Shown piece by piece: positions 9,444 through 38,345 of a stretch of DNA of 64,000 nt. The stretch is from NCBI RefSeq assembly GCF_001314325.1, contig NZ_CP009429.1, positions 4,278,501-4,342,500 on the forward strand. The letters are read 5' to 3'. The notes under the pieces were generated by a model. The model searched no databases, had not been told where the DNA came from, and worked only from the letters and a program-made list of their open reading frames with translations. Position 1 is the stretch's first letter, and the number at the start of each line of letters is the position of its first letter. Made by a program: the position numbers and the translations under genes. Source of the stretch: Sphingopyxis macrogoltabida (GTDB lineage Bacteria; Pseudomonadota; Alphaproteobacteria; Sphingomonadales; Sphingomonadaceae).

Positions 9444-9464
9444 GGCCTTGGCTCTCCGTCCCGC

Positions 9465-10691: not shown

Positions 10692-10705
10692 CTGTCAGCC
10701 TTTCG

Positions 10706-11443: not shown

Positions 11444-11453
11444 ATCATTTCCT

Positions 11454-12482: not shown

Positions 12483-12494
12483 CCTCTTCCCTTG

Positions 12495-12512
12495 TTTATC
12501 CATTTGGATAAA
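12495..12512. promoter_or_regulatory. Candidate TetR operator (7-4-7 inverted repeat)
   Basis: TTTATCC at 12495-12501 and GGATAAA at 12506-12512 form a perfect inverted repeat with a 4-nt centre. It lies between the divergent phosphotransferase operon and the TetR gene at 12544, in the right place to control both. It also argues that translation of the phosphotransferase starts downstream, at 12482. Confidence 0.55.
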
Positions 12513-12543
12513 TGCATTTGACGCGTGCCGCTGTCAATGGCAA

Positions 12544-13188: not shown

Positions 13189-13190
13189 CC

Positions 13191-20745: not shown

Positions 20746-20763
20746 CGGTGTAGGCGATGGTGT

Positions 20764-20795
20764 ATTCCGGGGTGGGGCATGCCCCACCCCGGAAT
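20764..20795. repeat. Perfect 32-bp palindrome inside the IS leader
   Basis: The two 16-base halves, beginning ATTCCGGGGTGGGG, are exact reverse complements with no loop, centred on GCATGC. It lies between the left end and the transposase start. In transcripts it would form a very stable hairpin that could stop or mask read-through RNA entering from the flank. Confidence 0.85.
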
Positions 20796-20873
20796 GCGGC
20801 GTCGCTGGTGGCCACCGGGTTCATCGTTATGGTGGAGTTTGCACACTTCAACCGTGACGAAGAGGAGTTCCCG

Positions 20874-22088
20874 ATGACCGAGGACAGATTACTGATCGAA
20901 GAGCTTGCTGCGAAGGGCGGCCAACCGGATTTTTTGCGCACCATCGCCGAGAACGTGCTGCAGCTGATCATGGAGGCCGACGTTGATGGCCTGATCGGCG
21001 CGGGTCGCCACGAACGCAGCAGCGAGCGCGCGACCTGGCGCAACGGCTATCGCGACCGTTCGCTGGATACCCGGGTAGGCACGCTGAACCTGAAAATCCC
21101 CAAGCTGCGTGCTGGGTCCTACTTTCCGGGCTTCCTTGAGCCCCGCAAGATGGTCGAGAAAGCGCTGGTTGCGGTGATCCAGGAAGCGTGGATCGGCGGG
21201 GTCAGCACCCGGCGGGTCGATGAACTCGTCCAGGCCATGGGCATGACCGGCATCTCCAAGTCCACCGTCTCCAAGCTTTGCAAGGACATTGACGAGCGCG
21301 TCCATGCCTTTCTGAAACGCCCGCTCACCGGCGAATGGCCGTATCTCTGGCTCGATGCCACCTATCTCAAGGTACGCGAAGGCGGGCGGATCATCAGCGT
21401 TGCCGCAATAATCGCCATGGCCGTCAACACCGAGGGCCGGCGCGAGATCGTCGGCCTGCATATCGGCCCCTCGGAAGCGGAGGTCTTCTGGTCCGACTTC
21501 CTGAAGGACCTTGTTCGGCGCGGTCTTACCGGCGTGAAGCTGGTCATCTCCGATGCTCACGAGGGCCTCAAGGGCGCGATCACCCGCGTCATGGGCGCCA
21601 CCTGGCAGCGCTGCCGGGTGCACTTCATGCGCAATGCCCTGTCCTATGTGCCCAAGGGCCAGAACACTGTCGTCGCCGCCGCGATCCGCCAGGTCTTCCT
21701 GCAGCCCGATCAGAAAAGCGCAACGCAGGTCTGGCGACAGGTCGCCGACCAGTTGCGCACCCGTTGGCCCAAGCTCGGCGCCTGCATGGACGAGGCCGAA
21801 ACCGACGTGCTCGCCTACACCGGCTTTCCCACCCAGCACCGCACGAAGTTACACTCAACCAATCCGCTCGAGCGGCTCAACAAGGAGGTCAAGCGCCGCG
21901 CCGACGTCGTCGGAATCTTCCCGAACGAAGACAGCATCATCCGCCTCGTCGGGGCTGTGCTGATGGAGCAGAACGACGAGTGGCAGCTCCAGCACCGATA
22001 CATGCAGATCGAAGGCATGGCCGAACTCAACCAACCCATGATCGAGGAGGAAAATCAGCCCCTACACATCACCGCCAAAGCCGCCTGA
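20874..22088 (+). CDS. IS256-family transposase
   Basis: The 404-residue transposase has the mutator-type DDE catalytic core: first aspartate in LWLDATYLKVREG, second in LVISDAHEGLK, and the glutamate in NPLERLNKEVKRR. Upstream lies the conserved WRNGYRDRSLDTRVGTL segment. The ATG at 20874 has AAGAGGAG a few bases upstream. Longer in-frame starts would place the palindrome of the leader inside the protein. Length matches the family (about 400 residues), and no stop or shift is seen, so the gene is intact. Confidence 0.95.
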   Translation: MTEDRLLIEELAAKGGQPDFLRTIAENVLQLIMEADVDGLIGAGRHERSSERATWRNGYRDRSLDTRVGTLNLKIPKLRAGSYFPGFLEPRKMVEKALVAVIQEAWIGGVSTRRVDELVQAMGMTGISKSTVSKLCKDIDERVHAFLKRPLTGEWPYLWLDATYLKVREGGRIISVAAIIAMAVNTEGRREIVGLHIGPSEAEVFWSDFLKDLVRRGLTGVKLVISDAHEGLKGAITRVMGATWQRCRVHFMRNALSYVPKGQNTVVAAAIRQVFLQPDQKSATQVWRQVADQLRTRWPKLGACMDEAETDVLAYTGFPTQHRTKLHSTNPLERLNKEVKRRADVVGIFPNEDSIIRLVGAVLMEQNDEWQLQHRYMQIEGMAELNQPMIEEENQPLHITAKAA

Positions 22089-22488: not shown

Positions 22489-22627
22489 AAATTACTGCAA
22501 ATACCCCAGAGCTTCTTTTTCTACGCCAAAGTACGAAAAACCAAGCATTTGTTGACTTCTGCCTATGATATTCTATCCTAGCCCTACCCTGCGAAGCGGT
22601 GAATTTCTATTACGTCCTTATTACTTT

Positions 22628-22647
22628 TCGAATCGGCCACCCTCGCG
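22628..22647 (-). repeat. Inverted repeat flanking the attachment site, right copy
   Basis: This is the reverse-oriented partner of 22188-22207. It includes GGCCACCCTCGCG and lies just upstream of the integrase start. Confidence 0.6.
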
Positions 22648-22666
22648 TAATATGATGGAGGAACTT

Positions 22667-23935
22667 GTGGCGCTAGCAAAGCTCAATAAGCGGACGGTCG
22701 ATGCGCTGGCTGCACCAGCGACAGGCCAGGCATTTCTTTGGGATACCGAGATCAAGGGTTTCGGTGTCCGTGTCGGCGCAACCGGGGCGAAAACCTTCGT
22801 CATCCAGTATATGAATGAGGAAGGCCGGGTTCGGCGAGTGAAGATCGGGCGCTTCGGCGTGATGACGGTTGAGCAAGCCCGCGAGCTCGCGAAGATTCAG
22901 ATGGGAAAAGTGGCCTCAGGCGAAGACCCGGCGGAGGAATCGCGTCGGGTTCGGAAAGAGCTCAATGTAGCCGAAATGTGCGAATGGTATCTCGTCGAGG
23001 CGCGGGCGGGTCGCATCCTCGGTCGCAAGAATCGCCCGATCAAGGAATCCTCGCTCGACATGGACGAGAGCCGCATCCGGACGCACATTATCCCGCTCGT
23101 CGGCAAACGCCTCGTGCGGAAGCTGACGATCGCGGACGTCGAGGCGATGCAAAATGATATCGCCACCGGTCAGACCCGAAAGCCGCCGTCAGGCGGGCGC
23201 GGTGGTCGCCCAACGGGCGGCATCGGCGTCGCCGGAAGGAGCCTCGGCACCCTTCAGGCTATTCTCGGCCACGCAAAGCATAAGGGGTTGATTGCCGAGC
23301 ATCCGACGAAGGGGGCGAAGAAGCTCGCGACCAAGAAGAAAACCCGCCGTCTTAGCATTGCCGAGATCGAACTGCTTGGCCGGGCAATCGGCCGCGCTGA
23401 ACTGGGTGCCGAGAACCCCGTTGCGCTCGCCATCGTCAGAACGCTCCTTCTGACCGGCTATCGGCGGGAAGAAGCACAGGCGATGCAGCGGCAATGGGTC
23501 AACCCGATGGGCGGCTATGTCGCGTTTCCAGACACAAAGAGCGATGCGCAATATCGGGCAATCGGACCCGAGGCAGTAAAGATCGTCGTGGCTCAACCGG
23601 AGATCGCTGGCTGCCCCTTTGTCTTCCCCGCGTCGAACGGCGAAGGCCCGTTCACAGCTGTCAGCGACTGCTTGGCCCGCCTATGCCGCTCGGCAAGCAT
23701 CGTGGGCGTAACTCCGCATACCCTGCGCCACACCTTCGGGAGCATGGCAGGCGAACTCGGTTTCTCCGAGCTGACAATCCGCGCCATGCTGGGTCACGCG
23801 TCTCAGAGTGTGACGCAGGACTATGTCCATATTGACGAGGCCGTGAAGCTAGCGGTTCGCCGAACATCGGACGAGATCGCCAAGCATCTCGAGACTGGGG
23901 TCCGCAAAGCAGCCCAGATGAAGTTTGCAGCCTGA
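22667..23935 (+). CDS. int: Tyrosine-type site-specific integrase (tRNA-Gly targeting)
   Basis: The 422-residue integrase has an N-terminal arm-binding domain (GFGVRVGATGAKTFVIQY), a core-binding region, and a C-terminal catalytic domain. The catalytic arginine is in LLTGYRREEA, the H-x-x-R pair is in PHTLRHTFGS, and the downstream histidine and nucleophilic tyrosine are in GHASQSVTQDYVH. It should catalyse excision and integration at the tRNA-Gly site about 180 bp upstream. The GTG at 22667 is preceded by GGAGGA at good spacing and yields a family-like N-terminus; ATGs at 22652 and 22655 lack a ribosome site. It converges with the large nuclease-like gene. Confidence 0.92.
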   Translation: MALAKLNKRTVDALAAPATGQAFLWDTEIKGFGVRVGATGAKTFVIQYMNEEGRVRRVKIGRFGVMTVEQARELAKIQMGKVASGEDPAEESRRVRKELNVAEMCEWYLVEARAGRILGRKNRPIKESSLDMDESRIRTHIIPLVGKRLVRKLTIADVEAMQNDIATGQTRKPPSGGRGGRPTGGIGVAGRSLGTLQAILGHAKHKGLIAEHPTKGAKKLATKKKTRRLSIAEIELLGRAIGRAELGAENPVALAIVRTLLLTGYRREEAQAMQRQWVNPMGGYVAFPDTKSDAQYRAIGPEAVKIVVAQPEIAGCPFVFPASNGEGPFTAVSDCLARLCRSASIVGVTPHTLRHTFGSMAGELGFSELTIRAMLGHASQSVTQDYVHIDEAVKLAVRRTSDEIAKHLETGVRKAAQMKFAA

Positions 23936-23948: not shown

Positions 23949-26900
23949 TCAGGACGAAGCATCGCGGGCTTCCATTTCCTCCAGAATCTGCACCCCGATG
24001 ATCTCCAGACCGGATTTCCCGATGTCGGCGACCTTCCGGATCGCAAGGTCATGTTTCAGGATGGCGAGGTCCATCATGAGTTCCGGCTCCCCATTCTCCT
24101 TCACGTAGCTCGGCACTAGAATGTACGAGCCGCCCGCTGGGTAATTTTCGAGAAAGAAACGGAGGTTCGTGTCAACGGCCGGCTCAAGCAATTTCAGGCG
24201 GCTGGGCATGCTCATCAGCGTACCCTTGAATTCCGCGGGCTCGACTCCCGGCATCAGGAGCACGGCATAATGTGACGGAGGCCGCCCGGGCAGTTCGCGC
24301 AAGATCACGACATGAATAGCGCCCTCAGCATCGCGCGCGCCAAACCGCTCGCGCCAACGCTCGAAAATCACCCGGCCTTCCTCGCGGTCCTCGAAATGCA
24401 GGCCCACGACCGGGAGGTCGTGATCCAGCCCGAGCATCACTCCGATCCAACCCGCGCGCTCCCATTGCGGAATGTCTAATATCGACCGCACTTCGACGCT
24501 GCGATGATCGCCTGTTGCAAACCGCTCGCTGACCTTCTCCTCTTCGGGATCGGTTTCGGGTACGCGCACGATCACGGGCCGCTCGGGTTTCGGCGGAAAG
24601 CGCTCAAGGGCTAGCTCATCCCACCCGGCCAGACGAGATGCTTGGCTGTTCATTGCACGAATGCGGCTATTGGAGCTCGCCACTGCGGCGCTGACCCGCT
24701 CCAACAAAGATTCCTGGCGGAATAGTTTTTCTAGCGAAATCTTCTGCCCGTCGGCGGCCGAGGTTGCGACGAGCATCAACGTCGACAGCAGCAGAAACTG
24801 ACTGTGGGTCCCATTTTCGCCCAGATGGTCGGCGGGTGTTGATCCGGTCGGCCAGTGCAGCTTCGCCCGCATCATCTTTTGATCGAAATCGACGCTCGGC
24901 GCTGTAACGTCTCTAGTCTCGACAAGATCGATATCGAAGCGCTCGACAAAGGCCCCGATCCGCAGGCCGATTGTCGTCGCGAAAAGCGTTTCGATCACGG
25001 CCAGGAGTGTCTGCCCGGCAAGGATCGAACTGTCGCTGCCCGGCACATGCACGACCACGCGCATACCGATGACGCGGGTTTCGATGCTGTGAGAGTCCGA
25101 AGGGCCAATGAGCAGCGGCCGCCCACGCAGGTCGCCGGCCGGCTGATTGGCTACTCGCGCGAACGTCTCTTCCAGCCCGCCGTCCGGCTCCTCCTCCGGT
25201 TGCCGCTCGCCGAGCCGCTCCACATAGCCAAGGACATAAAGAAGCGCGCCGCAGCACATGGGCAGACCCAGCTGCTCCAGTACCGACGGCAACGCCGCCA
25301 TCGTCTCAAGTTCTTCGGCCGAACTATTCAGAAACTGACTGGCGAGGACCCCATCCATCTGTTTGAGCCGGTCATCCACGCGCGCTTTCGATGCGTCGTC
25401 GAGCGGCAGCATTTTCCTGCAGCCGTTAATCATGCTGATCGCGTCAAGCGTTTCGGGAAGCAGTCGCAGTTCGATATCGATCCAGGTCAGCAGCATGAAG
25501 GCGGGGACCAAGCTGACCGACGGATGGGTGTCATGTTCCGAATCTGCGATGATCGACGCGACCGCGAACAGCGCAGCGGCGCGCGCAGCCCACAGCATCC
25601 CGATCCCCTGATATGCGACGGCGAGCATGTAGCTCGCCTCGATCAGCTCTTCGGCGTATTCGCGCTTGGTGAGCTGGTGCGTTGCCCGCCCAAGCAGGCG
25701 GATGCGTTCGAGGCGGTCGGCGTTCGCATCGAGGCGGCTTGCGCGTCGGAGCAGGATTCGACCGCTCTCTCCCTCGCCCACGCGCTTTCCCATGAAGTCC
25801 GCGAGCTTGTCGACCAGTGCGCCATAGACCGGGTCGTTCCCCGCGAGCGGCCCTACCTGTTCGATGAGCTGCGAAAGCCGCTCCGCATCATATTCTGCAA
25901 GGCCAGACGCCGCTTCGAGAATAGAGTCGGCTTCCTGCCAAAATGGAGCGATCTTGTCGCGCCGGTCGAACGCCAGCGAAGTAATCTCAAGCATCAGCGA
26001 GGTCGTGCGGGCTTCGAGCGCATTATTGGGGCGATCCTTTTCTCCCGCAAAGAATTCGAGCCGGTCGACAAGCGGCCCCCGTCGTTCATCAAGGCGCACG
26101 ACCTCGGCCGGCCGATAGCCCTGCGCAACCGCACTGATCAGGCACTGCAGGAGATTTGCGACACGTTCCGCGTGCCGCGCCGCCGGGGACCCGAGCGCGA
26201 GCGCTGCAAACGCGTCGAATTCCCGCTCGAGAAGATCGAAGTCGTCGAACCAGTAGAAGCCGGTCCAGAGCCGCTGATAACGCGCTTCGATACGTTGGCT
26301 GAGCGATCCCGACTGATCGGCAAGACGGATGGCCCGATCAAGCCGTCCGTCGGTCTCGAACCGCGGCCGCTCCAATTCCTTTGAAAGCGTCGCAGCGAGC
26401 AGCGCGTCGGTTGCGCGCTGCGCCTCAACACCCTGATAGGCTGTGGGGTCCTGAATCGCCTTCTCAAGATCCTCAAGCTGCTGCGATCGCGCATAGTCGG
26501 CCGGACCGACCCGCGCCTTCTCGTTGCGCTTTCCGACACCGAGGTAATCGACCGCCAGATCCTGATGCCCCTGGTTCAGGAGCCGATCGATGATCCAGCT
26601 TCGATCCAATATCTCGACGCGAAAGCCAACCTTTGCGGACAGCTCATCCTGAATCTTGGCGACGTCTTTGGAGCGGCCGTAGCGCGACGTGACCACGAAC
26701 ACCTTCGTATAGGGCCGTCCCGTCCCAGCGATGCCCTCGATGTCCGAGCGCGCCTTTTGCTGCCACTGCTTCTTTGCACTGAAAGCAAAGGCCCAGCGCT
26801 CGCTGCCCGAATTTGCCTCGCCGACATAGTGCAGGGTCGCGATCTCATCGGCGACGGCGAAGGTCTCACTATCGGCCTTGCTGTCGCCGCCACCTTCGGG

Positions 26901-27152
26901 GCCGGTAGCCAGCTTCAGATTGGGGCAGATAATCCGCTCGCAAAGCTTGCGGCAGAAGATTTCGAAATCATGGTGCTCGTTGCGCGCCGTGACATATTCG
27001 AGCCGTTGCTCCAGCTCATAGGCTTCGAGAATGAAGGCCGGTTCGGAACCGCTATCGGAAAACTCGTCGGGTCTCAGCTGGCGCATGAATTCCGAAGGAA
27101 GAATAGCGCCCATGGCCTCAGGCAGATCGGCCGAATCGTCGGGATGGTCCAT
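23949..27152 (-). CDS. Large protein with predicted N-terminal restriction-nuclease-like domain
   Basis: The 1067-residue protein has a segment at about residues 58-200 that resembles a PD-(D/E)xK nuclease. It has GPEGGGDSKADSETF, then WAFAFSAKKQW with the lysine on a core strand, then KARSDIEGIAGTGRPYTKVF and ILDRSWIIDRLL. The glutamate usually before the lysine is replaced here, so activity is uncertain. The long remainder is helical (possible repeat scaffold) and ends in a mixed domain. No helicase or ATPase motif is seen. It lies between the integrase and a CoiA-like gene, a typical cargo position. A defence role is inferred from architecture and location. The ATG at 27152 is clear. Confidence 0.75.
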   Translation of the reverse strand: MDHPDDSADLPEAMGAILPSEFMRQLRPDEFSDSGSEPAFILEAYELEQRLEYVTARNEHHDFEIFCRKLCERIICPNLKLATGPEGGGDSKADSETFAVADEIATLHYVGEANSGSERWAFAFSAKKQWQQKARSDIEGIAGTGRPYTKVFVVTSRYGRSKDVAKIQDELSAKVGFRVEILDRSWIIDRLLNQGHQDLAVDYLGVGKRNEKARVGPADYARSQQLEDLEKAIQDPTAYQGVEAQRATDALLAATLSKELERPRFETDGRLDRAIRLADQSGSLSQRIEARYQRLWTGFYWFDDFDLLEREFDAFAALALGSPAARHAERVANLLQCLISAVAQGYRPAEVVRLDERRGPLVDRLEFFAGEKDRPNNALEARTTSLMLEITSLAFDRRDKIAPFWQEADSILEAASGLAEYDAERLSQLIEQVGPLAGNDPVYGALVDKLADFMGKRVGEGESGRILLRRASRLDANADRLERIRLLGRATHQLTKREYAEELIEASYMLAVAYQGIGMLWAARAAALFAVASIIADSEHDTHPSVSLVPAFMLLTWIDIELRLLPETLDAISMINGCRKMLPLDDASKARVDDRLKQMDGVLASQFLNSSAEELETMAALPSVLEQLGLPMCCGALLYVLGYVERLGERQPEEEPDGGLEETFARVANQPAGDLRGRPLLIGPSDSHSIETRVIGMRVVVHVPGSDSSILAGQTLLAVIETLFATTIGLRIGAFVERFDIDLVETRDVTAPSVDFDQKMMRAKLHWPTGSTPADHLGENGTHSQFLLLSTLMLVATSAADGQKISLEKLFRQESLLERVSAAVASSNSRIRAMNSQASRLAGWDELALERFPPKPERPVIVRVPETDPEEEKVSERFATGDHRSVEVRSILDIPQWERAGWIGVMLGLDHDLPVVGLHFEDREEGRVIFERWRERFGARDAEGAIHVVILRELPGRPPSHYAVLLMPGVEPAEFKGTLMSMPSRLKLLEPAVDTNLRFFLENYPAGGSYILVPSYVKENGEPELMMDLAILKHDLAIRKVADIGKSGLEIIGVQILEEMEARDASS

Positions 27153-27213: not shown

Positions 27214-29082
27214 CTACGCTTTCGGAAGAAGGGCCAGTGCGACTCTCAAATCCGCATCGGTCTCGCAAGCCTCGATGGGGCGCCGACCGGCGAGCTTCGG
27301 ATGCGCGCTGTTGAGGAAAAGGCGTGCGCGGTCTGGATCGCGGAAGGCTTTGTTGGAAGCGGTTGTGAGCCGCTTGCGCAGCTCCCCCGCCGCTTCCGCA
27401 GCCAAAACCCGTCGCTTCCTCGCATCTTCGGCGCGGTCGATATGGCTGAAGGCTCGCCAATAGAAATCGTCGCTGCCACACGCCCACTCGGTGATCGGCA
27501 CTCCGTCGACGACCGTCGATGCCAGCCAGATCTCGGCCTCGTCCTTGAGCGCGTTTTGCGCGGCGATGGCGAAGTTCCGCCGCCGGCTCTCCTTGGCGTC
27601 TTCGATCCGCTTGCGTTCGGCGGCTTCCTTCTCCTCGCGCTTCTTCCGGATTCCGTCGCGCCACTCCTGAAATGGCAAGCCGCAAAGATCGTCGACAATC
27701 GGAAGGTCCCTGTAGCTCCGCGACATGTCGAAGATCGCCTGGACCCGCTTGTCCAACGCGCGAAAATCATCGCCGCCTTCCGCCGCTACCTTCCAGGGAT
27801 TTCGCCCGCCGACATTATATCGCCGCATCCAGCGCCGGCTGAAACCATCCGGATCGGGATGGCCGGCATCCTTGGCGATGCAGGCAACGGTGCGCTCGAG
27901 GTCATAGCGGTTGTGTACGCGGGCATGAAGATCGGGGTCGACATAGAAGCGCTGCTCGTCACGCTCCCACACCACGGCCTGCCGATCAGTGAAGAGGTTG
28001 AAGAGATATTCGGTCACCGCTTGGCTGGGCGACCCGAAACTCTCCCGCGAGTAGCCGGCCGCCGCGAGTGCCTTCGGTTTGTAATTGCTGAGATCGGTGC
28101 GCAGCATCCATGTCGGCAGCACGCTCTCGAGATTCGCCTCGTTCGGCCACTCGCCATGGATATGGATGTCCGATCCCGCCGAGTATTTGATACTCGGCGT
28201 GTAGATCAGGGCATGCACGAGCGCCGCCTGCCAAAGCTGCGGCCTTACCGTGAACCAATGGCCCATCCGGCTCTTGGCCCCGAGCAGATAGTCCAGTTCG
28301 GCATATTGCAGGTCGGCCATGATCTCCGCGACCCATTCGGTATCGACGGGAGGCTTCTGCGGTCGCTCTCGGATATGCCATCGGAGCGCCTCGCCCTTGC
28401 GCGTCGCTTCCGCCGTGACCCGCTCGGACAGGCGCTGCGCGGAACGCTCGCGATCCGGATGATGGATCCAATGCCGCGGTGCGTCGTGCAAAATCTGCTC
28501 GTCGAGTTCGGCGCCATCAAGCTGGCGCCAACGCACTCCGGAAAGATCGATCTCGATCATCGGGCAGCCTGCGCGCGCGACCTTCTGCTGCTTCTCCTCA
28601 TCGACCGCGTGCGACACCTTGAATTCCACCGCGCGGCGATCGGACCCGATCCACGCCATGGCATCGGGCTGGAAATCGCCCTCCGATGTCTCCAGCCTCA
28701 CCTCGTCGAGCGCGAATTGCCCGCCTTCGAAAACGACCTCCTCCAATCGCTCCTCGCGGAGGACAAGGCTTGGCAGGGTGACCCGCCGGACAGCAGCCAG
28801 CAGCAGCTTGGCGTAGAGATGCAGGGCCGTCTCGCCTGAGCATCGGCTGTCGGACTGGTGCGCGAAATGCTTCCGCATCTTCTTCGGGAGGCGAAGGGTC
28901 AGTCGTTCCTTGCATCCAAGGCAGGTAAAGGGGCCGTCGCGGTGCGATACGATCTGTTCGACGTGCCGAACCACGCCATCGCCGCATGCAGCGAAAGGCA
29001 CCCGCAAGCCCAAGGGATCGGGCTTCGTTGTGCAAGGCCGCGGAGGTTGGGTCGGCCGCTCAGGAGCAAAATGCTCGTCCAC
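27214..29082 (-). CDS. CoiA-like nuclease fused to a DUF2384 (MbcA/ParS-type) domain
   Basis: The 622-residue protein begins with a zinc-ribbon-like CLGCKERLTLR (residues ~54-64), RKHFAHQ and CSGETALHLYAK, the pattern of competence protein CoiA. QPDAMAWIG and RAVEFKVSHAVD follow, a PD...ExK nuclease core. The middle is helical, with a charged coiled region near residues 480-510. The last ~45 residues (LFLNSAHPKLAGRRPIEACE, then a short tail) match the DUF2384 toxin-binding antitoxin domain. The start is a GTG at 29082, as no ATG occurs nearby. It is 50 nt downstream of the trb operon on the same strand, followed by the large nuclease-like gene. Function is unknown. Confidence 0.78.
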   Translation of the reverse strand: MDEHFAPERPTQPPRPCTTKPDPLGLRVPFAACGDGVVRHVEQIVSHRDGPFTCLGCKERLTLRLPKKMRKHFAHQSDSRCSGETALHLYAKLLLAAVRRVTLPSLVLREERLEEVVFEGGQFALDEVRLETSEGDFQPDAMAWIGSDRRAVEFKVSHAVDEEKQQKVARAGCPMIEIDLSGVRWRQLDGAELDEQILHDAPRHWIHHPDRERSAQRLSERVTAEATRKGEALRWHIRERPQKPPVDTEWVAEIMADLQYAELDYLLGAKSRMGHWFTVRPQLWQAALVHALIYTPSIKYSAGSDIHIHGEWPNEANLESVLPTWMLRTDLSNYKPKALAAAGYSRESFGSPSQAVTEYLFNLFTDRQAVVWERDEQRFYVDPDLHARVHNRYDLERTVACIAKDAGHPDPDGFSRRWMRRYNVGGRNPWKVAAEGGDDFRALDKRVQAIFDMSRSYRDLPIVDDLCGLPFQEWRDGIRKKREEKEAAERKRIEDAKESRRRNFAIAAQNALKDEAEIWLASTVVDGVPITEWACGSDDFYWRAFSHIDRAEDARKRRVLAAEAAGELRKRLTTASNKAFRDPDRARLFLNSAHPKLAGRRPIEACETDADLRVALALLPKA

Positions 29083-29132: not shown

Positions 29133-29348
29133 CTAACGCCGCGCCTTCGCAAAACCGCGATCGGTCGCGACGAAGCGTTCCAGCATCGGCGGTATGAGCC
29201 GTTCGATCGACAACGGCTCCGACAGGCCATTTTCCTTCGCATGTGCCGCGGCATAGTCGGCGAGATCGCGCGCAAGCTTGCCCGTGAGTTCGACAGTAGC
29301 CTTGACCGGCTTCTCCTCGACGATCGGCCCAAGGCGCAGCCGACTCAT
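29133..29348 (-). CDS. DUF2274 domain protein, trb operon tail
   Basis: The 71-residue protein (MSRLRLGPIVEEKPVK...) is the DUF2274 type that regularly follows trbI in alphaproteobacterial trb clusters. Its segment KATVELTGKLARDLADYAAA resembles a ribbon-helix-helix strand and helix, so it could bind DNA, but its role is unknown. The ATG at 29348 overlaps the trbI stop as ATGA. It is the last gene of the secretion operon before the cargo begins. Confidence 0.85.
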   Translation of the reverse strand: MSRLRLGPIVEEKPVKATVELTGKLARDLADYAAAHAKENGLSEPLSIERLIPPMLERFVATDRGFAKARR

Positions 29349-30559
29349 CTCCAATCCACCTGCGGCTCGAGAATGAGGTCGCGGGTGACGATCACACGGA
29401 GCGCGAAACCCGGTCGGATGGTGAGCGTCGGACGCACCGCCAGTTCGCGCTCGACGATGCGGCGCCCGGCTTGGCTCGTGCTGTCCTGCATCCCGTAGCG
29501 CAGCGCCCGGGCGAGTTCGTCGTCGCCGCCGACGCTGAGCTCGCTCCCGACCCCGAGCAGGGTCGAGACGAGCGCGGCGCGGACCATCCGGCCCCAATGA
29601 TTGTTCACCCGATCCTCCAGCCCCGACATGCCTGCGGCGTCGGCGCCGGGCTGCCGTTCGAGGCGGATCGATCGTCCGCCAGGCAAGATGAGGCGATCCC
29701 ATGCGAGGAGCACCCGGCTCTGTCCCGCCGCGATCTCGCTGTCATATTCGCCGATCAACCGCGACCCTTGCGGGATGAGCAGGATACGCCCGGTCGGACT
29801 GTCATAGATATTTTGCGTCACCTGCGCGCTGATCTGGCCCGGCAGGTCGGAGCGTATGCCCGTGATGAGCGCTGCCGGAATGACAGTCCCGGCCTGGACG
29901 ACCAGCGCGGAACTCGGGGCAATCAGGCGCTCGCCACTTTCGAGGGGCCTTTTCGAACCCGACGCCAGAAACTGACGCCGCCCCTCATTGGCCGTGCGAG
30001 GCTCCGCCGCCTGTTCGGGCGCGGCCGCCTCGGCGGACACAATGTCTGTTGCTGCGGAACTTGCGTTTCCGCCCCCCAGAAAGAGCCGGCTCGTCTGGGC
30101 GCTCTCGCGCTCCTGCAGTGCCCGCTGCCGCGCCTGTTCGGCGGCCGCCACGCGCGGATCGGGAGGATTGCCCCCTTCCGCGCCGATCGGCGGGACGGGG
30201 ATGGCTTCGCCGCTGCCCTGCGCCGCAACGATCGGCCGGCCGAGGTCGCCGGGGAGCGGCGGACCGAGCTTCGGCACGGCGCCATAATCGGCGGGGGCTC
30301 CGGTGACCGCGTCGGGCCTCGCATTGTTGCTCGCTTCATAGAGTTCCTGTCGCTCGGCCGGGGCCGGGGTGCGCAGCGCCCACATGAGCGATGCCGCGAT
30401 CGCGATGCCGCCGGCCCCGCCGATAACCGCCAGCGTTTTCCGCGACAGACGCATGACCCGCGGCGTCTCACCCGCGAGGCGGAACGCATCGGGGCTCGCA
30501 GGCGCGACCTCGGCCTCGGCGGGCACAACTTCTGCGCTCGGCTGTTCGGGCGCCGTCAC
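29345..30559 (-). CDS. trbI: Conjugal transfer protein TrbI (VirB10-like)
   Basis: The 404-residue protein has one membrane helix near residues 44-62, a proline- and glutamine-rich periplasmic linker, and a C-terminal TrbI/VirB10 domain with GTVIPAALITGI, IPQGSRLIGEYDS and WDRLILPGGRSI. It spans the periplasm and links the inner-membrane ATPases to the outer-membrane pore. Its start overlaps the trbG stop and its stop overlaps the DUF2274 start, each by four bases, so the operon is translationally coupled. Confidence 0.95.
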   Translation of the reverse strand: MTAPEQPSAEVVPAEAEVAPASPDAFRLAGETPRVMRLSRKTLAVIGGAGGIAIAASLMWALRTPAPAERQELYEASNNARPDAVTGAPADYGAVPKLGPPLPGDLGRPIVAAQGSGEAIPVPPIGAEGGNPPDPRVAAAEQARQRALQERESAQTSRLFLGGGNASSAATDIVSAEAAAPEQAAEPRTANEGRRQFLASGSKRPLESGERLIAPSSALVVQAGTVIPAALITGIRSDLPGQISAQVTQNIYDSPTGRILLIPQGSRLIGEYDSEIAAGQSRVLLAWDRLILPGGRSIRLERQPGADAAGMSGLEDRVNNHWGRMVRAALVSTLLGVGSELSVGGDDELARALRYGMQDSTSQAGRRIVERELAVRPTLTIRPGFALRVIVTRDLILEPQVDWR

Positions 30560-31392
30560 GACCGGCCTCGCGGGCGCGGTGTTTCGCGTTCGATCCGCAC
30601 GGCCTTGGCGCCGCGCCCGCTCCCGAGCCGGAGTTCGGCGCGATCGAAAAGGCGGTCGACGATCATGTAACGGCCGTCGACCCGGTAGTTGAGCAGCTCC
30701 GCCGCGCCTTTCTCGCCGATCGCGAACAGCGGGGGCATGTCCGCGGTTGCGATCGCAGCGCCGAACTCGACGAAGAGCTGGCGCCCATCGTCGAAGACGC
30801 GCACCGGCCGCCAGGGGACCTTCGCGCCGGAGATGCGATAGGCAAAGCTCAACGCCGCGAAATCGATCCCGCCTGCAATCGGGGCGAGCCGCGCCCGTTC
30901 GGTCTCGGCGGCGCGAAGCGCGATCAGCTCGTCCTGCGGATAGGACCAGGAGACCGCTGCCATATAGGTGGCGGGGGTCGCGCGCAGCTCGATGTGATAG
31001 GTTCGACGGCTAGTGTTGATGACCAGATTCGTCATGATGTCGGGGCGCGTGGGCTTCACCAAAATATGGACGCGGCGCGACGCGCCCGTCCCGCTCATCG
31101 TATCGCCGATGACCCAGCGCACCGTGTCGCCGGCCGCGACAGGCCCCGGACCGACAAGCTCCTCGCCCTCCTGCAATGCGATGTCGGTAACCTGTCCGGG
31201 CGCGGTGTAGACCTGAAACAGCGCGCCGTCGGCCCAGGCATATTTCTGGATGGCGTTGAGGAAGGTCGCGCGCTCGGGCTGGACGCGCGCCGCGTCGTTC
31301 GCGCGGCCGACCTGCGTGCGCGGATCGGCGGGCGCAGCCTGCGCCGGCAGCGCGAGCGCGGCGGCGCCGAGAAGAAGGGTAAGGCGGATCAT
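30556..31392 (-). CDS. trbG: Conjugal transfer protein TrbG (VirB9-like)
   Basis: The 278-residue periplasmic protein has a signal peptide ending ALPAQA-APA. The VirB9/TrbG pattern follows: YTAPGQVTDIALQEGEEL, then RRVHILVKPTRPDIMTNLVI, and a C-terminal beta domain (VRVFDDGRQLFVEFG, YRVDGRYMIVDRLFD). It forms the outer ring of the core complex with TrbI. The ATG at 31392 gives the signal peptide and sits in an ATGA overlap with trbF. A longer form to 31554 has no sensible N-terminus. Confidence 0.95.
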   Translation of the reverse strand: MIRLTLLLGAAALALPAQAAPADPRTQVGRANDAARVQPERATFLNAIQKYAWADGALFQVYTAPGQVTDIALQEGEELVGPGPVAAGDTVRWVIGDTMSGTGASRRVHILVKPTRPDIMTNLVINTSRRTYHIELRATPATYMAAVSWSYPQDELIALRAAETERARLAPIAGGIDFAALSFAYRISGAKVPWRPVRVFDDGRQLFVEFGAAIATADMPPLFAIGEKGAAELLNYRVDGRYMIVDRLFDRAELRLGSGRGAKAVRIERETPRPRGRS

Positions 31393-32072
31393 TGGCTGAG
31401 CTCCTTCGACCAAGAAATTGCGGTGACAAAAACGCCGAGTGGGTTCCGACGCAGGGCGTCTGGGGTGCGGGGCGGCTGGATCGAGGTGGTCAGGATCGCC
31501 GACCAGCGCGACGTCTCGACGAGGCTGCCATCCTGATAGCGGCGCTCGGTCCATGCGATGCGGAAGCTGTCGCGCGACGCGCGGATCACGCTCGACACGT
31601 CGACGGCGACTTGCATCTTGCCGACCTCGGCAAAGGGATCGTTGGCGCGCGCGTGGTCGCTCAGCGCCTGTGCGCCCTTGGGCGTTGTGAAGTCATAGGC
31701 GCTGAGCCAGTCCTTGCGGAGCACCACCGGATCGGCCGGGATCGAGCGGACATGCTCGATGAAGCGGGCGAGATGGAACGCGATCTGCGGGTCGGTCGGC
31801 GAATAGTCGGCATCGGCGGGCGCCACTGATCTTGCCTCGCCGAGCTTGTCGACCTCGACCACCCAAGGGGTGATCGTGCCGCGGAGCGACTGCCAGACGA
31901 GCGCCGAGGCGAGCCCGCCCGAAAGCGCGAGGCAGCCGAAGAAGGCAAGACGCCAGCTTTTTGCTTGGGTTCGGGCCGAGCCGATGCGGTCGTCCCAGAC
32001 CTGCGCCGCGCGCTGGTAGGGCGTAACCGGGACCGGGGACTTGCCATAATGTTGGGACGGGCGTCGAAACAT
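31389..32072 (-). CDS. trbF: Conjugal transfer protein TrbF (VirB8-like)
   Basis: The 227-residue bitopic protein has a short cytoplasmic tail (MFRRPSQHYGKSPVPVTPYQ), one membrane helix at about residues 43-61 and a periplasmic VirB8-type domain ending WSAILTTSIQPP...GVFVTAISWSKEL. VirB8 proteins nucleate assembly of the inner-membrane complex. The ATG at 32072 lies 4 nt from the trbL stop. Confidence 0.94.
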   Translation of the reverse strand: MFRRPSQHYGKSPVPVTPYQRAAQVWDDRIGSARTQAKSWRLAFFGCLALSGGLASALVWQSLRGTITPWVVEVDKLGEARSVAPADADYSPTDPQIAFHLARFIEHVRSIPADPVVLRKDWLSAYDFTTPKGAQALSDHARANDPFAEVGKMQVAVDVSSVIRASRDSFRIAWTERRYQDGSLVETSRWSAILTTSIQPPRTPDALRRNPLGVFVTAISWSKELSQ

Positions 32073-32076
32073 GGGT

Positions 32077-33363
32077 TCAATCCTTCTGGCTGATGTCGGG
32101 AGCGGAGCCGGCGCCATGACTGTCGCCGGCCTTGAGGGTCTGCGAGGCGATGGTGGCGCCCGAGGTGACGGCCTGCCGCCGCTTCATGGCGGCCGCCCAG
32201 GTCGGGGGCGACGCCGCGCCGTCGCTGGCGGCTGCAGCGCCGGCCGCGGACTTGCCCGCCTGCCCCGCGGCATAGCTTTGATGCAGGCGGTCAGCCGCGG
32301 CCCGGAGCGGCGAACCCGCGCCGCGCGCCGTGTCACGCGCCACATTGGCGAGCCCCGCACCGAACGCCCGCATCCCGCTCTTCCCGGCCGCGCCCCGGGC
32401 ATAGGAAGCCGAGGCGCTGCCGGACGCGCGCGAGGCGCCGAGCGCGGTGCGACCGACGGCGCTGCTCGCCGCCCCGGCCGCGAGCGTTGCGCCAGCCGCC
32501 CCGGCTGCGATCGTCGCGCCTGCAGCGAGCGTGGTGCCGGCTGCGGCTCCGGCGCCGAGCTGCGGACCGCCCGCCACGATGCCATTGGCGACGCTCGGAC
32601 CGAAGATGCCGAGACCGAGCAGTGTTAAGGCGCCAAGCGCGATAGCCATTACTTCGCGGATATCGGGTTCGGTCCCGAGCCCCGCGTCCATGAAGCGCTG
32701 GAAGAGGGTCGTGCCGATTCCGGTGATGACCGCGAGCACGAGCAGCTTGATGCCCGACGAGATGATATGGCCGAGGACGCGCTCAGCCATGAAGGCGGTG
32801 CGCCCGAAGAAGGCGAAGGGCAGCAGGACGAAGCCTGCGAGCGTCACCAATTTAAACTCCAGGATCGTGACGAAGACCTGCACCGCGAGAATGAAGAAGG
32901 CGATCACGACGATCACCCAAGCGATCAGCAGGATCAGGATTTGGACGAAGTTGGTGAAAAGCCCGACCGGACCTACAAGATCGGCGGTCGCGTCGAGCAG
33001 GGGCTCGGCGGCGTCGAGGCCGGTGGATGCGATCATGCCGGGACGCATGAAATCGCCGATCGCCATCGCGCTTCCCGCTGCCTTCAGGCCGAGACCCGCG
33101 AAGCTCTCCAGCAATATGGTCGCCAGCGCCTGAAAATTGCCGATGATGAAGGCGAAGACACCGATATAGAGCGTCTTCTTCACCAGCCGCTGCAGCACGT
33201 CCTCGTCGGTGCCCCACGCCCAGAAGAGCGCCGCGATCGTTATGTCGATCACGATCAGCGTCGAGGAGAGGAAGCCGACCTCGCCGCCGAGCAATCCGAA
33301 CCCGCTGTCGATATAGGTCGAGAAGACCGACAGGAAATTGTCGATGACGCCGGTGTCGTTCAT
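32077..33363 (-). CDS. trbL: P-type conjugative transfer protein TrbL (VirB6-like)
   Basis: The 428-residue protein has about six membrane helices in the first 270 residues, with a central stretch of hydrophobic segments (LILLIAWVIVVIAFFILAVQ). A long alanine- and glycine-rich cytoplasmic or periplasmic tail follows. This is the TrbL/VirB6 channel layout. The repeated GAAAG/AAGA composition of the tail is normal for the family. The start at 33363 is in an ATGA overlap with the trbK-like gene. Confidence 0.94.
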   Translation of the reverse strand: MNDTGVIDNFLSVFSTYIDSGFGLLGGEVGFLSSTLIVIDITIAALFWAWGTDEDVLQRLVKKTLYIGVFAFIIGNFQALATILLESFAGLGLKAAGSAMAIGDFMRPGMIASTGLDAAEPLLDATADLVGPVGLFTNFVQILILLIAWVIVVIAFFILAVQVFVTILEFKLVTLAGFVLLPFAFFGRTAFMAERVLGHIISSGIKLLVLAVITGIGTTLFQRFMDAGLGTEPDIREVMAIALGALTLLGLGIFGPSVANGIVAGGPQLGAGAAAGTTLAAGATIAAGAAGATLAAGAASSAVGRTALGASRASGSASASYARGAAGKSGMRAFGAGLANVARDTARGAGSPLRAAADRLHQSYAAGQAGKSAAGAAAASDGAASPPTWAAAMKRRQAVTSGATIASQTLKAGDSHGAGSAPDISQKD

Positions 33364-33611
33364 GGCTTGCTCTTTTCGGTCCGGAAGAAATGGCGCCGCT
33401 TCGCTTCCCAGGCCGCCTCGCATTCGGGGTCGGCCTCGGTGGCGGTTCGGCAGCGGCGAAGCGTGTCGCCATAGTCAGGGGGTGCGTCCGCTCCGGAGAT
33501 CGCGGGAGCGGACGCACGGGGCGCGGGCGGATCGAGCGCGGCGACAAGGGCAAGGGTCAGCGCAAGACCCAGGACGATTGCCCCCATCACCAGCCCGCCC
33601 GCCCTGCCCAT
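33360..33611 (-). CDS. TrbK-like putative entry-exclusion protein
   Basis: The 83-residue product has one N-terminal membrane helix (LVMGAIVLGLALTLALVAAL) and a short periplasmic part with two cysteines (RRCRTATEADPECEAAW). That is the 'TrbK-alt' pattern found between trbJ and trbL in alphaproteobacterial clusters. Entry exclusion, blocking redundant transfer into a cell that already has the element, is inferred from position and shape. The ATG at 33611 was chosen because it puts the helix at the N-terminus. Confidence 0.85.
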   Translation of the reverse strand: MGRAGGLVMGAIVLGLALTLALVAALDPPAPRASAPAISGADAPPDYGDTLRRCRTATEADPECEAAWEAKRRHFFRTEKSKP

Positions 33612-33612
33612 C

Positions 33613-34329
33613 TCAATTGCCCTTGCGGAAGCGGCGGAAGCGTTCGCGGCCTTCGGCCTCGGCGGCCGCCGCACGCGCGGCGTCGAGCATCTCGGCGCGG
33701 CCCTGTGCGCTCATGACCGCGGCGAGATCGGCGATCTGCTGCGACTGGATGGCGAGAAGCTGGTTGCCCGCCTGCGCGGCCTGCAGCGCGCCGGTCGCCG
33801 ACTGGCTGGCGCCGACGATCGTCGAGATCGACGTCCGCGTTCCGCCCATATTCGTGACGATGCCGGCCTGCACCTTCATCGCATCCTCGAAGGCGCCGAC
33901 GCTGTCCTTCCAGCGCGCCTCGGCATTGGCGACCATCTCGGCGGCAGAGCCCGTCAGCGCTCCGCCCTTGTAGCGCGCCTCGAACCCCTTCTGGATGTCC
34001 GACACGTTGAACGCGATGCCCTCTGCCTGCGCGAGGAGCTGGCGCGTCTGGTCGACCTGCGCCTCGAGCGTGCCCAGCGTCGATGTCGGCAGGCTGTTGA
34101 GGTTCTTCGCCTCGTTCATCAGCGAGGTCGCCTGATTCTGCAGCTGCTTGATCTGGTTGTTGATCTGCTCGAGCGTGCGCGCCGCGGTCAGGATATTCTG
34201 CGAATAGTTGCGCGGATCGTGGACGATGCCGCCGAGCTGGGCGCTCGCCGGAACGGCCAGCATCGCGCCCGACACGGGCAGCAACACAAGTGCCGCGGCA
34301 GCGACGGCGCGGACGATATTCTTCTTCAT
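33613..34329 (-). CDS. trbJ: P-type conjugative transfer protein TrbJ (VirB5-like)
   Basis: The 238-residue protein has a signal peptide ending VPASA-QLG and the TrbJ pattern: HDPRNYSQNILTAARTLEQI, then a long coiled region of QIKQLQNQATSLMNEAKNL. It is a periplasmic, possibly pilus-tip, component. Its ATG at 34329 overlaps the trbE stop as ATGA. The protein ends just before trbK. Confidence 0.95.
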   Translation of the reverse strand: MKKNIVRAVAAAALVLLPVSGAMLAVPASAQLGGIVHDPRNYSQNILTAARTLEQINNQIKQLQNQATSLMNEAKNLNSLPTSTLGTLEAQVDQTRQLLAQAEGIAFNVSDIQKGFEARYKGGALTGSAAEMVANAEARWKDSVGAFEDAMKVQAGIVTNMGGTRTSISTIVGASQSATGALQAAQAGNQLLAIQSQQIADLAAVMSAQGRAEMLDAARAAAAEAEGRERFRRFRKGN

Positions 34330-36767
34330 CGGGGGAACTCCTCATTGGGGGCGGCAATGGTGGCGAGCAGCTCGGCCGCCCATTCGAGCTTGCGGTGGGA
34401 AAGCCAGGCGGCCGCGAACCCTTCGGGGCCGTGCGCTGCGAACAGCTCGGCGATGTGCGTCTGGTCGGTCTTCGAGGATGCGGCGGTGAAGGCGAGCGCA
34501 ACCTCGCCTAGCCCCAAGTCGAAGAGACGATTGCCGCGGCGCGACTGGCAGTAATAGTCGCGCTTCGGGGTCGCCCGGCTCAGTATCTCGATTTGCCGGC
34601 CGTTGAGACCGAAGCGCTCGTAGATGCGCGCAATCTGCGGCTCGAGCGCGCGCTCGTTCGGCAGGAATATGCGGGTCGGACAGCTCTCGATGATCGCCGG
34701 CGCGATACTCGAGGTTTCGATGTCGGCAAGGCTCTGCGTCGCGAAGACCACGCTCGCATTCTTCTTGCGGAGCGTCTTCAGCCATTCGCGGAGTTGCGCC
34801 GCGAAAGCCGGGCTATCGAGCACGAGCCAGCCTTCATCGATGATGATGAGCGTCGGCGAGCCGTCGAGCCGTCCGGCGATCCGGTGAAACAGATAGGACA
34901 GGACGGGTCCCGCCGACGCGGCGCCGACAAGGCCTTCGGTCTCGAAGGCCTGCACGCGCGCGGCCCCGATGCGCTCCTCGTCGGCATCGAGCAGCCGCCC
35001 CCAAGGTCCGCCGACCAAATAGGGCGCGAGCGCCTGCTTGAGTTCGCGCGACTGGAGGAGCACCGCGAGCCCCGTCAGCGTGCGTTCGGCGACAGGCGCC
35101 GTCGCGAGCGAGGTCAGCGCCGACCAGAGATGCTCCTTCGCCGCCGGGTCGATCATTATGCCTTCGCCCGCGAACAGCGCGGCGAGCCATTCGGCCGCCC
35201 AGCTCCGCTCGGACGCCTCGTCGATCCGGGCGAGCGGCTGCAACGCCACGCCGCCCTCGCCATCGTGGAGCGCCCCGCCGAGATCCTGCCAGTCGCCGCC
35301 CATCGCGAGCGCTGCGGCTCGGATCGAGCCGCCGAAATCGAAAGCGAAAATCTGCGAGCCAGGATAGCGGCGAAACTGCATGGCGATCGTCGCGAGCAGC
35401 ACCGACTTGCCCGCCCCCGTCGGACCAACGACGAGGCAATGGCCGACGTCGCCGACATGGAGGGAAAGGCGGAACGGGGTCGAGCCTTCGGTCTTGCCGT
35501 ACAGCAAGGGGGCGTCACCGAAATGCTCGTCCCGTTCCGCCCCCGCCCACACGGCGGACAGGGGGATCATGTGGGCAAGGTTGAGGGTGGAGATCGGCGG
35601 CCGGCGAACATTGGCATAAGCGTGACCGGGCAGGCTCCCGAGCCATGCCTCGATCGCGTTCATGCCTTCGATCGTGCAGGTGAAGTCGCGGCCCTGGATG
35701 ACCTTCTCGACCAAACGGAGCTTCTCGGCGGCGAGCGCCGCGTCCGTGTCCCACACGGTGACGGTCGCGGTGACATAGGCGACGCCGGCATGATCGGCGC
35801 CGAGTTCCTGCAAGGCCATGTCGGCATCGGCCGCCTTGTTCGAGGCATCGCTGTCGACAAGCGCCGATTGCTCGTTGGTCATCACCTCCTTGAGGATCGC
35901 GGCGATCGATTTGCGCTTGGCGAACCATTGCCGCCGGATTTTCGTCAGCAGCTTGGTGGCGTCGGTCTTGTCGAGCATGATCGCGCGGGTCGACCAGCGA
36001 TAGGCGAATGCCAGCCGGTTCAGATCGTCGAGCAAACCCGGCCAAGTCGCGGTCGGAAAGCCCGTGATGGTCAGGGTCCGAAGATGGTGCTCGCCGAGCC
36101 GCGGCTCGAGGCCGCCGACCAACGGCTGGTCGGTCAGCAGCGCGTCAAGATAAACCGGGGTCTCGGGCACCCGAACACGCTGGCGCTTGGTCGATACCGT
36201 CGAATGCAAATAAGTCAGCGTCTCGCTGTCATCCAGCCATTCGGCCTCGGGCATGAAACCTTCGACGAGATGAAGAGTGCGGTTCGATCGGTCGATGAAG
36301 CTCGCAAGATGCTCCTTCGGATCGACACCCGAGCGCTCCATGCCTTCGTAAAGCCAACCTTCCGCCCGCGAGGCATCCTCAGCCGGCGGCATCCACAGGA
36401 GAGTCAGATAATAGCGGCTCTCGAAATGCGCCCCCTCCTCCCGGAACTGCTCGCGGCGCTCCAAGTCGACAAGAGCAGATGCCGGGTCGGGGAAATGCGA
36501 TTCGGGATAATCGCTCGACGGCAGCCGCTGCGCCTCCACGAACAAGGCCCAGCCCGAGCCGAGACGCCGGATCGCATTGTTGAGCCGGGCGGTGACCGCG
36601 ACGAGTTCGGCGGGGGTGGCGCTGTCGAGATCGGGACCGCGGAAGGCAGCGGTTCGCTGGAACGAGCCATCCTTGTTCAGCACCGCGCCTTCGGCGACCA
36701 GCGCGACCCAAGGGAGATAATCGGCAAGGCAGGCCGACTTCGAGCGATATTCGGCGAGATTCATCAT
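34326..36767 (-). CDS. trbE: Conjugal transfer ATPase TrbE (VirB4-like)
   Basis: The 813-residue ATPase has an N-terminal CagE/VirB4 domain and a C-terminal P-loop module: Walker A GPTGAGKSVLLATI, Walker B LIIIDEGWLVL, and the downstream KKNASVVFATQSLADIE sensor region. It powers pilus biogenesis and substrate transfer at the inner membrane. Length matches the family. The start overlaps trbD and the stop overlaps trbJ, each by four bases. Confidence 0.97.
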   Translation of the reverse strand: MMNLAEYRSKSACLADYLPWVALVAEGAVLNKDGSFQRTAAFRGPDLDSATPAELVAVTARLNNAIRRLGSGWALFVEAQRLPSSDYPESHFPDPASALVDLERREQFREEGAHFESRYYLTLLWMPPAEDASRAEGWLYEGMERSGVDPKEHLASFIDRSNRTLHLVEGFMPEAEWLDDSETLTYLHSTVSTKRQRVRVPETPVYLDALLTDQPLVGGLEPRLGEHHLRTLTITGFPTATWPGLLDDLNRLAFAYRWSTRAIMLDKTDATKLLTKIRRQWFAKRKSIAAILKEVMTNEQSALVDSDASNKAADADMALQELGADHAGVAYVTATVTVWDTDAALAAEKLRLVEKVIQGRDFTCTIEGMNAIEAWLGSLPGHAYANVRRPPISTLNLAHMIPLSAVWAGAERDEHFGDAPLLYGKTEGSTPFRLSLHVGDVGHCLVVGPTGAGKSVLLATIAMQFRRYPGSQIFAFDFGGSIRAAALAMGGDWQDLGGALHDGEGGVALQPLARIDEASERSWAAEWLAALFAGEGIMIDPAAKEHLWSALTSLATAPVAERTLTGLAVLLQSRELKQALAPYLVGGPWGRLLDADEERIGAARVQAFETEGLVGAASAGPVLSYLFHRIAGRLDGSPTLIIIDEGWLVLDSPAFAAQLREWLKTLRKKNASVVFATQSLADIETSSIAPAIIESCPTRIFLPNERALEPQIARIYERFGLNGRQIEILSRATPKRDYYCQSRRGNRLFDLGLGEVALAFTAASSKTDQTHIAELFAAHGPEGFAAAWLSHRKLEWAAELLATIAAPNEEFPR

Positions 36768-37033
36768 GGCCGCATCCAGACAGGATATTTGAGGTGACGT
36801 TTGGCGACGTCGACGAACTGCGGGTCGCGGCGCGCCGCCCAGACCGAGAGCGCATGGCCCACGACCCAGAGGACGAGCCCCGCGATCCAGAGGCGGAGGC
36901 CAAGGCCGATCCCGGCCGCGAGCGTGCCATTGGCGATCGCGAGGGCGCGCGGCGCGCCGCCAAGCAGGATCGGCTCGGCGAGCGCGCGGTGCACGGGCGC
37001 GAAAAAGCCGGTGATTTCGGCCGGGGCATCCAT
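36764..37033 (-). CDS. trbD: Conjugal transfer protein TrbD (VirB3-like)
   Basis: The 89-residue protein begins MDAPAEITGFFAPVHRALAEPILLGGAPR, the VirB3/TrbD start that precedes two adjacent hydrophobic segments, and ends in a basic stretch. It anchors the VirB4 ATPase at the inner membrane. The ATG at 37033 shares a single base with the trbC stop (TGATG). The surrounding frame can be read longer, but the upstream part is low-complexity. Confidence 0.92.
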   Translation of the reverse strand: MDAPAEITGFFAPVHRALAEPILLGGAPRALAIANGTLAAGIGLGLRLWIAGLVLWVVGHALSVWAARRDPQFVDVAKRHLKYPVWMRP

Positions 37034-37365
37034 CAGACGACGGCTCCGCCGCCGAAAGAGAAGAAGGTCAGGAAGAAGCTCGACGCCGCGAAGGCGATCG
37101 ACAGTCCGAATACGATCTGGACCATGCGGCGGAAGCCGCCCGACGTGTCGCCGAACGAGATCGTCAGCCCGGTGATGATGATGATGATCAGCGAGATCAC
37201 CTTCGCCACCGGCCCCTCGACGCTTTCGAGGATCGACTGCAGCGGCGCTTCCCACGGCATCGAAGAGCCACCGGCCCGAGCGGGCAAGGCGGCAACGAGC
37301 GCGACATAGAGGGCGGTCGAGGCGAGCAGGAAGCGCGGGGCTTCCCGCCGGGCGGCGTGGGTCAT
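37033..37365 (-). CDS. trbC: Conjugal transfer pilin TrbC (VirB2-like)
   Basis: The 110-residue prepilin has a cleavable signal (VALVAALPARAGG) and two hydrophobic segments separated by a short polar loop (FGDTSGGFRRM), the VirB2/TrbC pattern. It would be processed, and possibly cyclised by a TraF-type peptidase; one is encoded at 48571-49161. The start at 37365 is 3 nt from the trbB stop. Confidence 0.92.
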   Translation of the reverse strand: MTHAARREAPRFLLASTALYVALVAALPARAGGSSMPWEAPLQSILESVEGPVAKVISLIIIIITGLTISFGDTSGGFRRMVQIVFGLSIAFAASSFFLTFFSFGGGAVV

Positions 37366-37367
37366 GG

Positions 37368-38345
37368 TCAGTCTCCTTCGGGGGTCAAGAGGGGGGTAAT
37401 GCGGTAGTCGCCGGTCGGCGCATCGAGACCTTCGACACGGGCGAGTTCGGCGAGGCGCCGGCCGGCGCCGTCGCGCACGAGAACGGCGACGAGATCGATG
37501 GTCTCCGCGAGAAGGGCGCGTGGGACGGTGATCACGGCCTCCTGGATGAGTTGCTCCATGCGGCGGAGCGCGCCGATCGCGCTGCCCGCGTGGATCGTGC
37601 CGATGCCGCCGGGATGGCCGGTGCCCCAGGCCTTTAGAAGATCGAGCGCCTCGGCACCGCGAACCTCGCCGATCGGGATGCGGTCGGGCCGGAGACGGAG
37701 CGACGAGCGGACGAGATCGGACAGTGATGCGACCCCGTCCTTGGTACGCATCGCGACCAGATTGGGAGCAGCGCATTGCAGCTCTCGAGTGTCTTCGATC
37801 AGGACGACACGCTCGCTGGTCTTGGCGACCTCGGCGAGCAAGGCATTGGTAAGGGTGGTCTTGCCTGTCCCGGTGCCGCCCGCGACGAGGATGTTGAGGC
37901 GTTCGGTGACCCCCGAGCGCAGCGCCTCGGCCGAAGTCGCGGACATGATGCCTGCCGCAACATAGTCGCCGAGCGAGAAGACCGCGACCGCGGGCTTGCG
38001 GATTGCGAAGGTCGGTGCCGCGACGACCGGCGGCAGCAGACCCTCGAAGCGTTCCCCGCTTTCGGGAAGCTCCGCCGATACGCGCGGCGATCCGGCATGG
38101 ACCTCGGCGCCGACATGATGGGCCACGAGGCGAATGATGCGCTCGCCATCGGTTGCTGCGAGCAGGATACCGCTATCGGTGATCCCGGTGCCGAGCCGAT
38201 CGACCCAGAGCCGACCGTCGGGATTGAGCATGATTTCGATAACCGCCGGGTCCGCGAGCCACTCGGCGATCGCGCCGCCAAGCGCTGTCCGCAACATGCG
38301 CGCACCACGTCCCTGTGCCTCGAAACGGACTGCTTCTGCGCCCAT
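37368..38345 (-). CDS. trbB: P-type conjugative transfer ATPase TrbB (VirB11-like)
   Basis: The 325-residue secretion ATPase has Walker A in [16 protein letters not shown], an Asp box in [11 protein letters not shown], Walker B in [15 protein letters not shown] and the HIS box [11 protein letters not shown]. It forms a hexamer at the cytoplasmic face of the pore. It is the first gene of the trb operon. The ~220 bp upstream to the divergent regulator at 38566 must hold the operon promoter. Confidence 0.96.

Follow-up and report, generated by a model that had tools for sequence, protein, structure and literature searches.

The 64,000-nucleotide stretch of Sphingopyxis macrogoltabida DNA analysed here (contig NZ_CP009429.1, positions 4,278,501 to 4,342,500; the window) contains a mobile conjugative element, one gene of which encodes a 622-residue CoiA-like protein: a predicted zinc-ribbon PD-(D/E)XK nuclease ending in a tail of the DUF2384 type, whose modelled fold is that of the antitoxins of RES toxins. 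The fusion is real and unusual. The best reading of its function, not proven and held by us tentatively, is that of a mobile-element nuclease that would cut foreign DNA and so protect the host or the element. The tail would then be no classic antitoxin but a module for docking or control, binding a partner protein that steers or restrains the nuclease.

Domain architecture of the CoiA-like protein

A preliminary description of this DNA proposed a CoiA-type N-terminus, nuclease-like motifs and a DUF2384-type C-terminus, and all three hold. The profile CoiA_N (PF25164) matches residues 46–82 above the Pfam cut-off (E 2.9e-10) and also matches 34 of 39 aligned sequences; the residues C54, C57, H72, H75 and C81 of this region would bind zinc. 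The domain that follows was modelled with a fold matching the Hjc and VRR-NUC nucleases, and carries the E...D...E-x-K residues of a PD-(D/E)XK enzyme (E84, D140, E153 and K155) together with K164. In the alignment, E84 is kept in all 37 sequences with a residue at that position and D140 in 38 of 38, while E153 and K164 are invariant (39/39). By prediction the protein would cut DNA, presumably foreign DNA.

In its order of CoiA_N zinc ribbon and predicted PD-(D/E)XK nuclease the protein resembles the competence protein CoiA of S. pneumoniae (COG4469 / pfam06054), from which it differs in its additional helical, coiled-coil and DUF2384 parts, in its location within a mobile element and, we presume, in its greater length. 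The 622-residue protein has no match to the CoiA_nuc profile PF06054 in a Pfam scan up to E 10, and that profile finds nothing in its genome, compared with matches in 3 of 14 control genomes; we therefore call the protein CoiA-like rather than CoiA, and with respect to that profile it is the modelled fold alone that supports the nuclease call. A 2005 study predicted CoiA proteins to be PD-(D/E)XK nucleases of the PD-EXQ type, with E-x-Q where the window protein has E-x-K, and with a conserved arginine at the site of a swapped lysine (PMC1189080). The invariant K164 may be the counterpart of that arginine.

At the other end of the protein, the last 60 residues proved DUF2384-like by both profile and model. 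PF09722 matches residues 580–613 above the Pfam cut-off, and the last 59 residues were modelled with a fold like those of the RES-antitoxin toxin-binding domains 6gw6, 8gug, 6fkg and NatR, including the LxGxRP-type core shared with Xre/MbcA/ParS antitoxins. PF09722 matches 21 of the 39 aligned sequences; in the window protein the match ends at profile position 39 of 51, leaving the last 12 positions unmatched. This early end is one difference from the Xre/MbcA/ParS antitoxins; others are the fusion to a predicted nuclease, the lack of an adjoining RES gene and the lack of an N-terminal helix-turn-helix domain, for which Pfam gave no family, the N-terminus being instead CoiA_N and a nuclease-like fold. 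Searches of PDB sequences gave no lead with the 622-residue protein, with its last 60 residues or with the 1067-residue product of the neighbouring gene.

Conservation among five homologues of 52–62% identity also singles out the tail: the best 15 of 588 segments of 35 residues all lie in it, in a count that scored gaps as differences and in which the absent N-termini of P0006 and P0009 (two of the five) lowered the N-terminal segments. When gaps are excluded and domains compared, the tail outscores the nuclease in four of these homologues. A chance motif match was considered for the tail and rejected, as Pfam profile, modelled fold and conservation among close relatives concur.

The fusion was described at the outset as unfamiliar, and it is indeed rare in the genomes examined. 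PF09722 matches at 45 places across 59 genomes of the family, and at 42 of these the open frame has no more than 245 residues, as expected for antitoxins. Of the three in frames above 400 residues, the window gene alone is a long protein, since the other two, read out, are an antitoxin-like stretch at the end of an unrelated open frame. The idea that large DUF2384 fusions form a common class was therefore dropped, the window gene being the one true case. The literature searched for a link between CoiA and DUF2384 yielded no paper naming both.

Defence genes near relatives

The defence reading draws on the surroundings of other relatives. At locus L065 a McrB-like AAA gene, McrC and CoiA are consecutive on one strand (9079-15004), the first two directly upstream of CoiA, and at L066 (8879-11169) a McrC remnant alone precedes it. 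AbiEi adjoins CoiA at L037, with AbiEii beyond; a type IIG restriction-modification gene is present at L036, and an N6 methylase gene lies ~3.7 kb away at L071. A WYL protein adjoins CoiA at L042, L067 and L068, where SbcCD-like genes also occur. At L038 and on the Novosphingobium plasmid p3 a distant CoiA relative stands directly upstream of a 246-aa gene, with a DUF4365 protein and a short pAgo two and three genes past it, a four-gene cassette that we take to be SPARDA-like. Its two copies, L038:9047-14603 and L129:8040-13596, are 94–99% identical; among the plasmid records listed, one of 20 with the cassette pAgo is also among the 30 with the cassette CoiA, making CoiA only an occasional neighbour of that pAgo. 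In Vassallo et al. 2022 (PMC9519451) a CoiA domain appears among the phage-defence systems of E. coli that were selected by experiment, a setting like the one proposed here, the likeness being one of description.

In a comparison with PADLOC (E <= 1e-8), the 72 open reading frames (ORFs) flanking 12 relatives matched 76 families, and an equal set of 72 control ORFs taken elsewhere in those 12 genomes matched 6. The loci L035, L042-L044 and L105-L107 and the window's own lineage stand outside this comparison.

Several observations weigh against the defence reading and the role it gives the tail. The PADLOC contrast counts families, many per gene: a single Cas12f/TnpB-like gene at L072 accounts for 15 and a single pAgo for 12, which inflates the contrast. 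With genes as the unit, individual tracing identified 7 of the 72 case ORFs (at L065, L036, L067, L037, L038, L072 and L066), and ~11 are implied by the PADLOC matches, one of which is to a putative DrmD. The controls have 3 to 9 of 72, confined to families that are broad, either ATPase-like or mads (mads, HerA, AriA). The excess per gene is modest, and the case matches differ mainly in being named systems. Moreover, the 12 loci amount to about 9 independent ones (L065 and L066 are related, as are L071 and L072, and L067 and L068 in part), and the control places were picked by hand and are unmatched for mobility. Nearer home, the neighbours in the window's own lineage are the 1067-residue gene, an integrase and trb genes, and PADLOC-DB holds no family matching the 622-residue protein up to E 10 (nor the 1067-residue one), which sets it apart from the systems catalogued there. 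Within the protein, K155 is present in 29 of the 39 sequences and lost in 10, and nine tail residues are absent in 13 of 39. P0006 has a nuclease better conserved than its tail, as do the more distant homologues P0010, P0012, P0021, P0026 and P0034.

The genes checked at L035, L043, L044, L069, L073 and L105 include no recognised defence gene, though a RelE/ParE toxin is listed at L043 and a DUF4365-TPR protein at L069.

The tail and RES toxins

The modelled antitoxin fold and the PF09722 match above the Pfam cut-off would also suit a tail that works as a RES antitoxin domain, holding an NAD-degrading RES toxin in check and releasing it upon engagement or loss of the nuclease. The window's genome would offer partners for it, as three of its nine RES matches have no adjoining PF09722 match. 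We nevertheless consider this unlikely. Of the nine RES and eight PF09722 matches in that genome, six stand side by side; the CoiA-like gene has none beside it, and the nearest RES match is 52 kb away. By the Pfam RES profile, 10 of the 23 genomes with a CoiA relative have no RES match and 13 have one (9 and 13 of 22 if only good genomes are counted), and one of those without, G224, carries a CoiA 97% identical to the window protein. By coordinates, the first 9 kb on either side of CoiA are free of RES matches in all 23; the nearest are at 9.8 kb in G407, ~12 kb in G050 if its contig is circular, and 31 kb in G985, in a survey that includes some short contigs (that of G178 measures 6 kb). A home-made RES profile likewise has no match in 28 CoiA loci, but its control is weak: it had been trained on six of the eight control loci and found one of the remaining two, while one of the six training frames, that of L022, is probably the wrong one because two overlapping L022 frames match. 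Finally, the last helix of NatR enters the active site of its toxin (PMC11535050), and the PF09722 match in the window protein stops before the end that corresponds to this toxin-reaching helix. A standing RES partner of the tail is therefore unlikely; an occasional or foreign one may exist.

The three RES matches without an adjoining PF09722 match are at C1:4359329 (the one ~52 kb away), C2:391387 and C2:368790, and at C1:2261725 (L034) the same genome has a 94-aa ORF that PF09722 matches but that has no RES match as its neighbour.

By analogy with antitoxins gripping RES toxins, the tail might also be a built-in sensor that recognises ADP-ribosyltransferase-fold proteins from phages or rival elements, contact with which would switch the nuclease on, the antitoxin fold then being the trigger of an immune effector. 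We regard this as very improbable.

The adjacent 1067-residue gene

It was further proposed that the CoiA-like protein and its 1067-residue neighbour form a two-gene system, here taken as one dedicated to defence. The two genes lie on the same strand, 61 bp apart, and the pairing recurs within their own lineage. The eight near relatives of the CoiA-like gene in genome contigs (six Sphingopyxis records, one metagenome-assembled genome from the Sphingomonadales and one from Dechloromonas) are adjacent to the 1067-residue gene in the same order at 8 of 8 loci. Across 80 genomes of the genus, CoiA matches occur in 13 and the neighbour in 13; 11 have both, adjacent by coordinates in 10 and both broken in the eleventh, while two have a CoiA relative only (one a short weak match) and two a piece of the neighbour only. 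When the eight loci were compared gene by gene, however, their CoiA proteins were 91–97% identical, so that they represent one element lineage, and the adjacency is confined to it. The neighbour is missing from all 17 loci where other CoiA relatives lie (16 by profile, L105 by tblastn), and a CoiA gene is listed in none of the seven plasmid regions with the neighbour that were inspected, out of 15 records found in PLSDB tables that are incomplete. The homologue counts are also unequal, at least 46 for the CoiA-like protein against at least 834 for the neighbour. The recurrence thus stands for one lineage and fails beyond it, the two-gene system was not borne out, and a dedicated partnership appears improbable.

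The neighbour itself has no Pfam match above cut-off. Its N-terminal motifs GPEGGGDSKAD and FSAK suggest a nuclease-like region, in a part where model confidence is low. Its relatives occur at three viral-contig loci; no CoiA relative was found in the viral contigs searched.

Pieces of both genes occur at L106 (4663-9867), where two element remnants adjoin: an N-terminal piece of CoiA (66%) by trbI (62%), then an integrase with the end of the 1067-residue gene adjoining a CoiA piece. On a Sphingobium plasmid (L045:11983-19060), a relative of the 1067-residue gene precedes genes for DUF1837 and a DEAD/DEAH helicase, presumably a Hachiman-like pair.

The mobile element and conjugation

The CoiA-like gene is placed between the integrase and the 1067-residue gene on one side and the conjugation cluster on the other (Table 1); the trb names are those we presume for these ORFs from their sequence. 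A scan for promoters and terminators gave results close to chance level.

Table 1. Features of the CoiA-like gene and of the surrounding element (positions in the window).
Feature	Position	Strand	Basis
CoiA-like nuclease (predicted) with DUF2384-type tail	27214..29082	-	ORF, 622 aa, GTG start
CoiA_N zinc-ribbon region, residues 42-82	28837..28959	-	Pfam match and conservation
Predicted PD-(D/E)XK nuclease, residues 83-211	28450..28836	-	fold of model and conservation; catalytic roles inferred
Long helices, likely coiled coil, residues 472-563	27394..27669	-	secondary structure
DUF2384 / Xre-MbcA-ParS C-terminal type domain, residues 564-622	27217..27393	-	Pfam, modelled fold, conservation
1067-aa neighbour: N-terminal nuclease-like motifs, TPR-like repeats, unassigned C-terminal part	23949..27152	-	homologue search, models
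Tyrosine integrase of the element	22565..23935	+	PF13356, PF00589
DUF2274 gene, end of trb cluster	29133..29348	-	PF10038 at residues 119-189 of ORF 29133-29702
trbI/G/F/L/J/E/D/B conjugation genes	29345..38345	-	ORFs; co-directional with CoiA-like gene

This arrangement would agree with a protein that helps the element in conjugation or establishment by processing transferred DNA, a task like that presumed for CoiA in competence. The gene runs in the direction of the trb genes, the last of which is 50 bp away, and in the L106 remnant (62–66% identical) the CoiA piece is again beside a trbI relative. On the other hand, the 17 loci holding other relatives yielded no match (E <= 1e-5) to the window's trb proteins, in a search that more distant trb proteins could escape and with some of the 17 loci on conjugative plasmids of other types; only the mixed remnant L106 matched. 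This absence argues, as far as sequence matches go, against a role tied to the window's own transfer system, not against one in other transfer systems. We consider a conjugation role doubtful, if less so than a RES antitoxin or a two-gene system.

The window contains no tRNA, and no exact repeat of at least 15 bases pairs the left-end stretch with the rest of 101.5 kb, so neither search marked the ends of the element. Beside its integrase end lies a transposase-like ORF (20757-22088), which we take to be of the IS256 type, and to the right of the conjugation genes are ORFs resembling a mutagenesis cassette (55273-61023), presumably DnaE2, ImuB and ImuA.

Implications

In the CoiA-like protein a DUF2384 domain ends a predicted nuclease that is also found in genomes without a RES gene. 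If the tail does control the nuclease, parts of toxin-antitoxin systems would have found new use in phage defence, as its regulators or sensors. The protein also points to the long CoiA-like family as a candidate defence gene, one that PADLOC-DB does not recognise.
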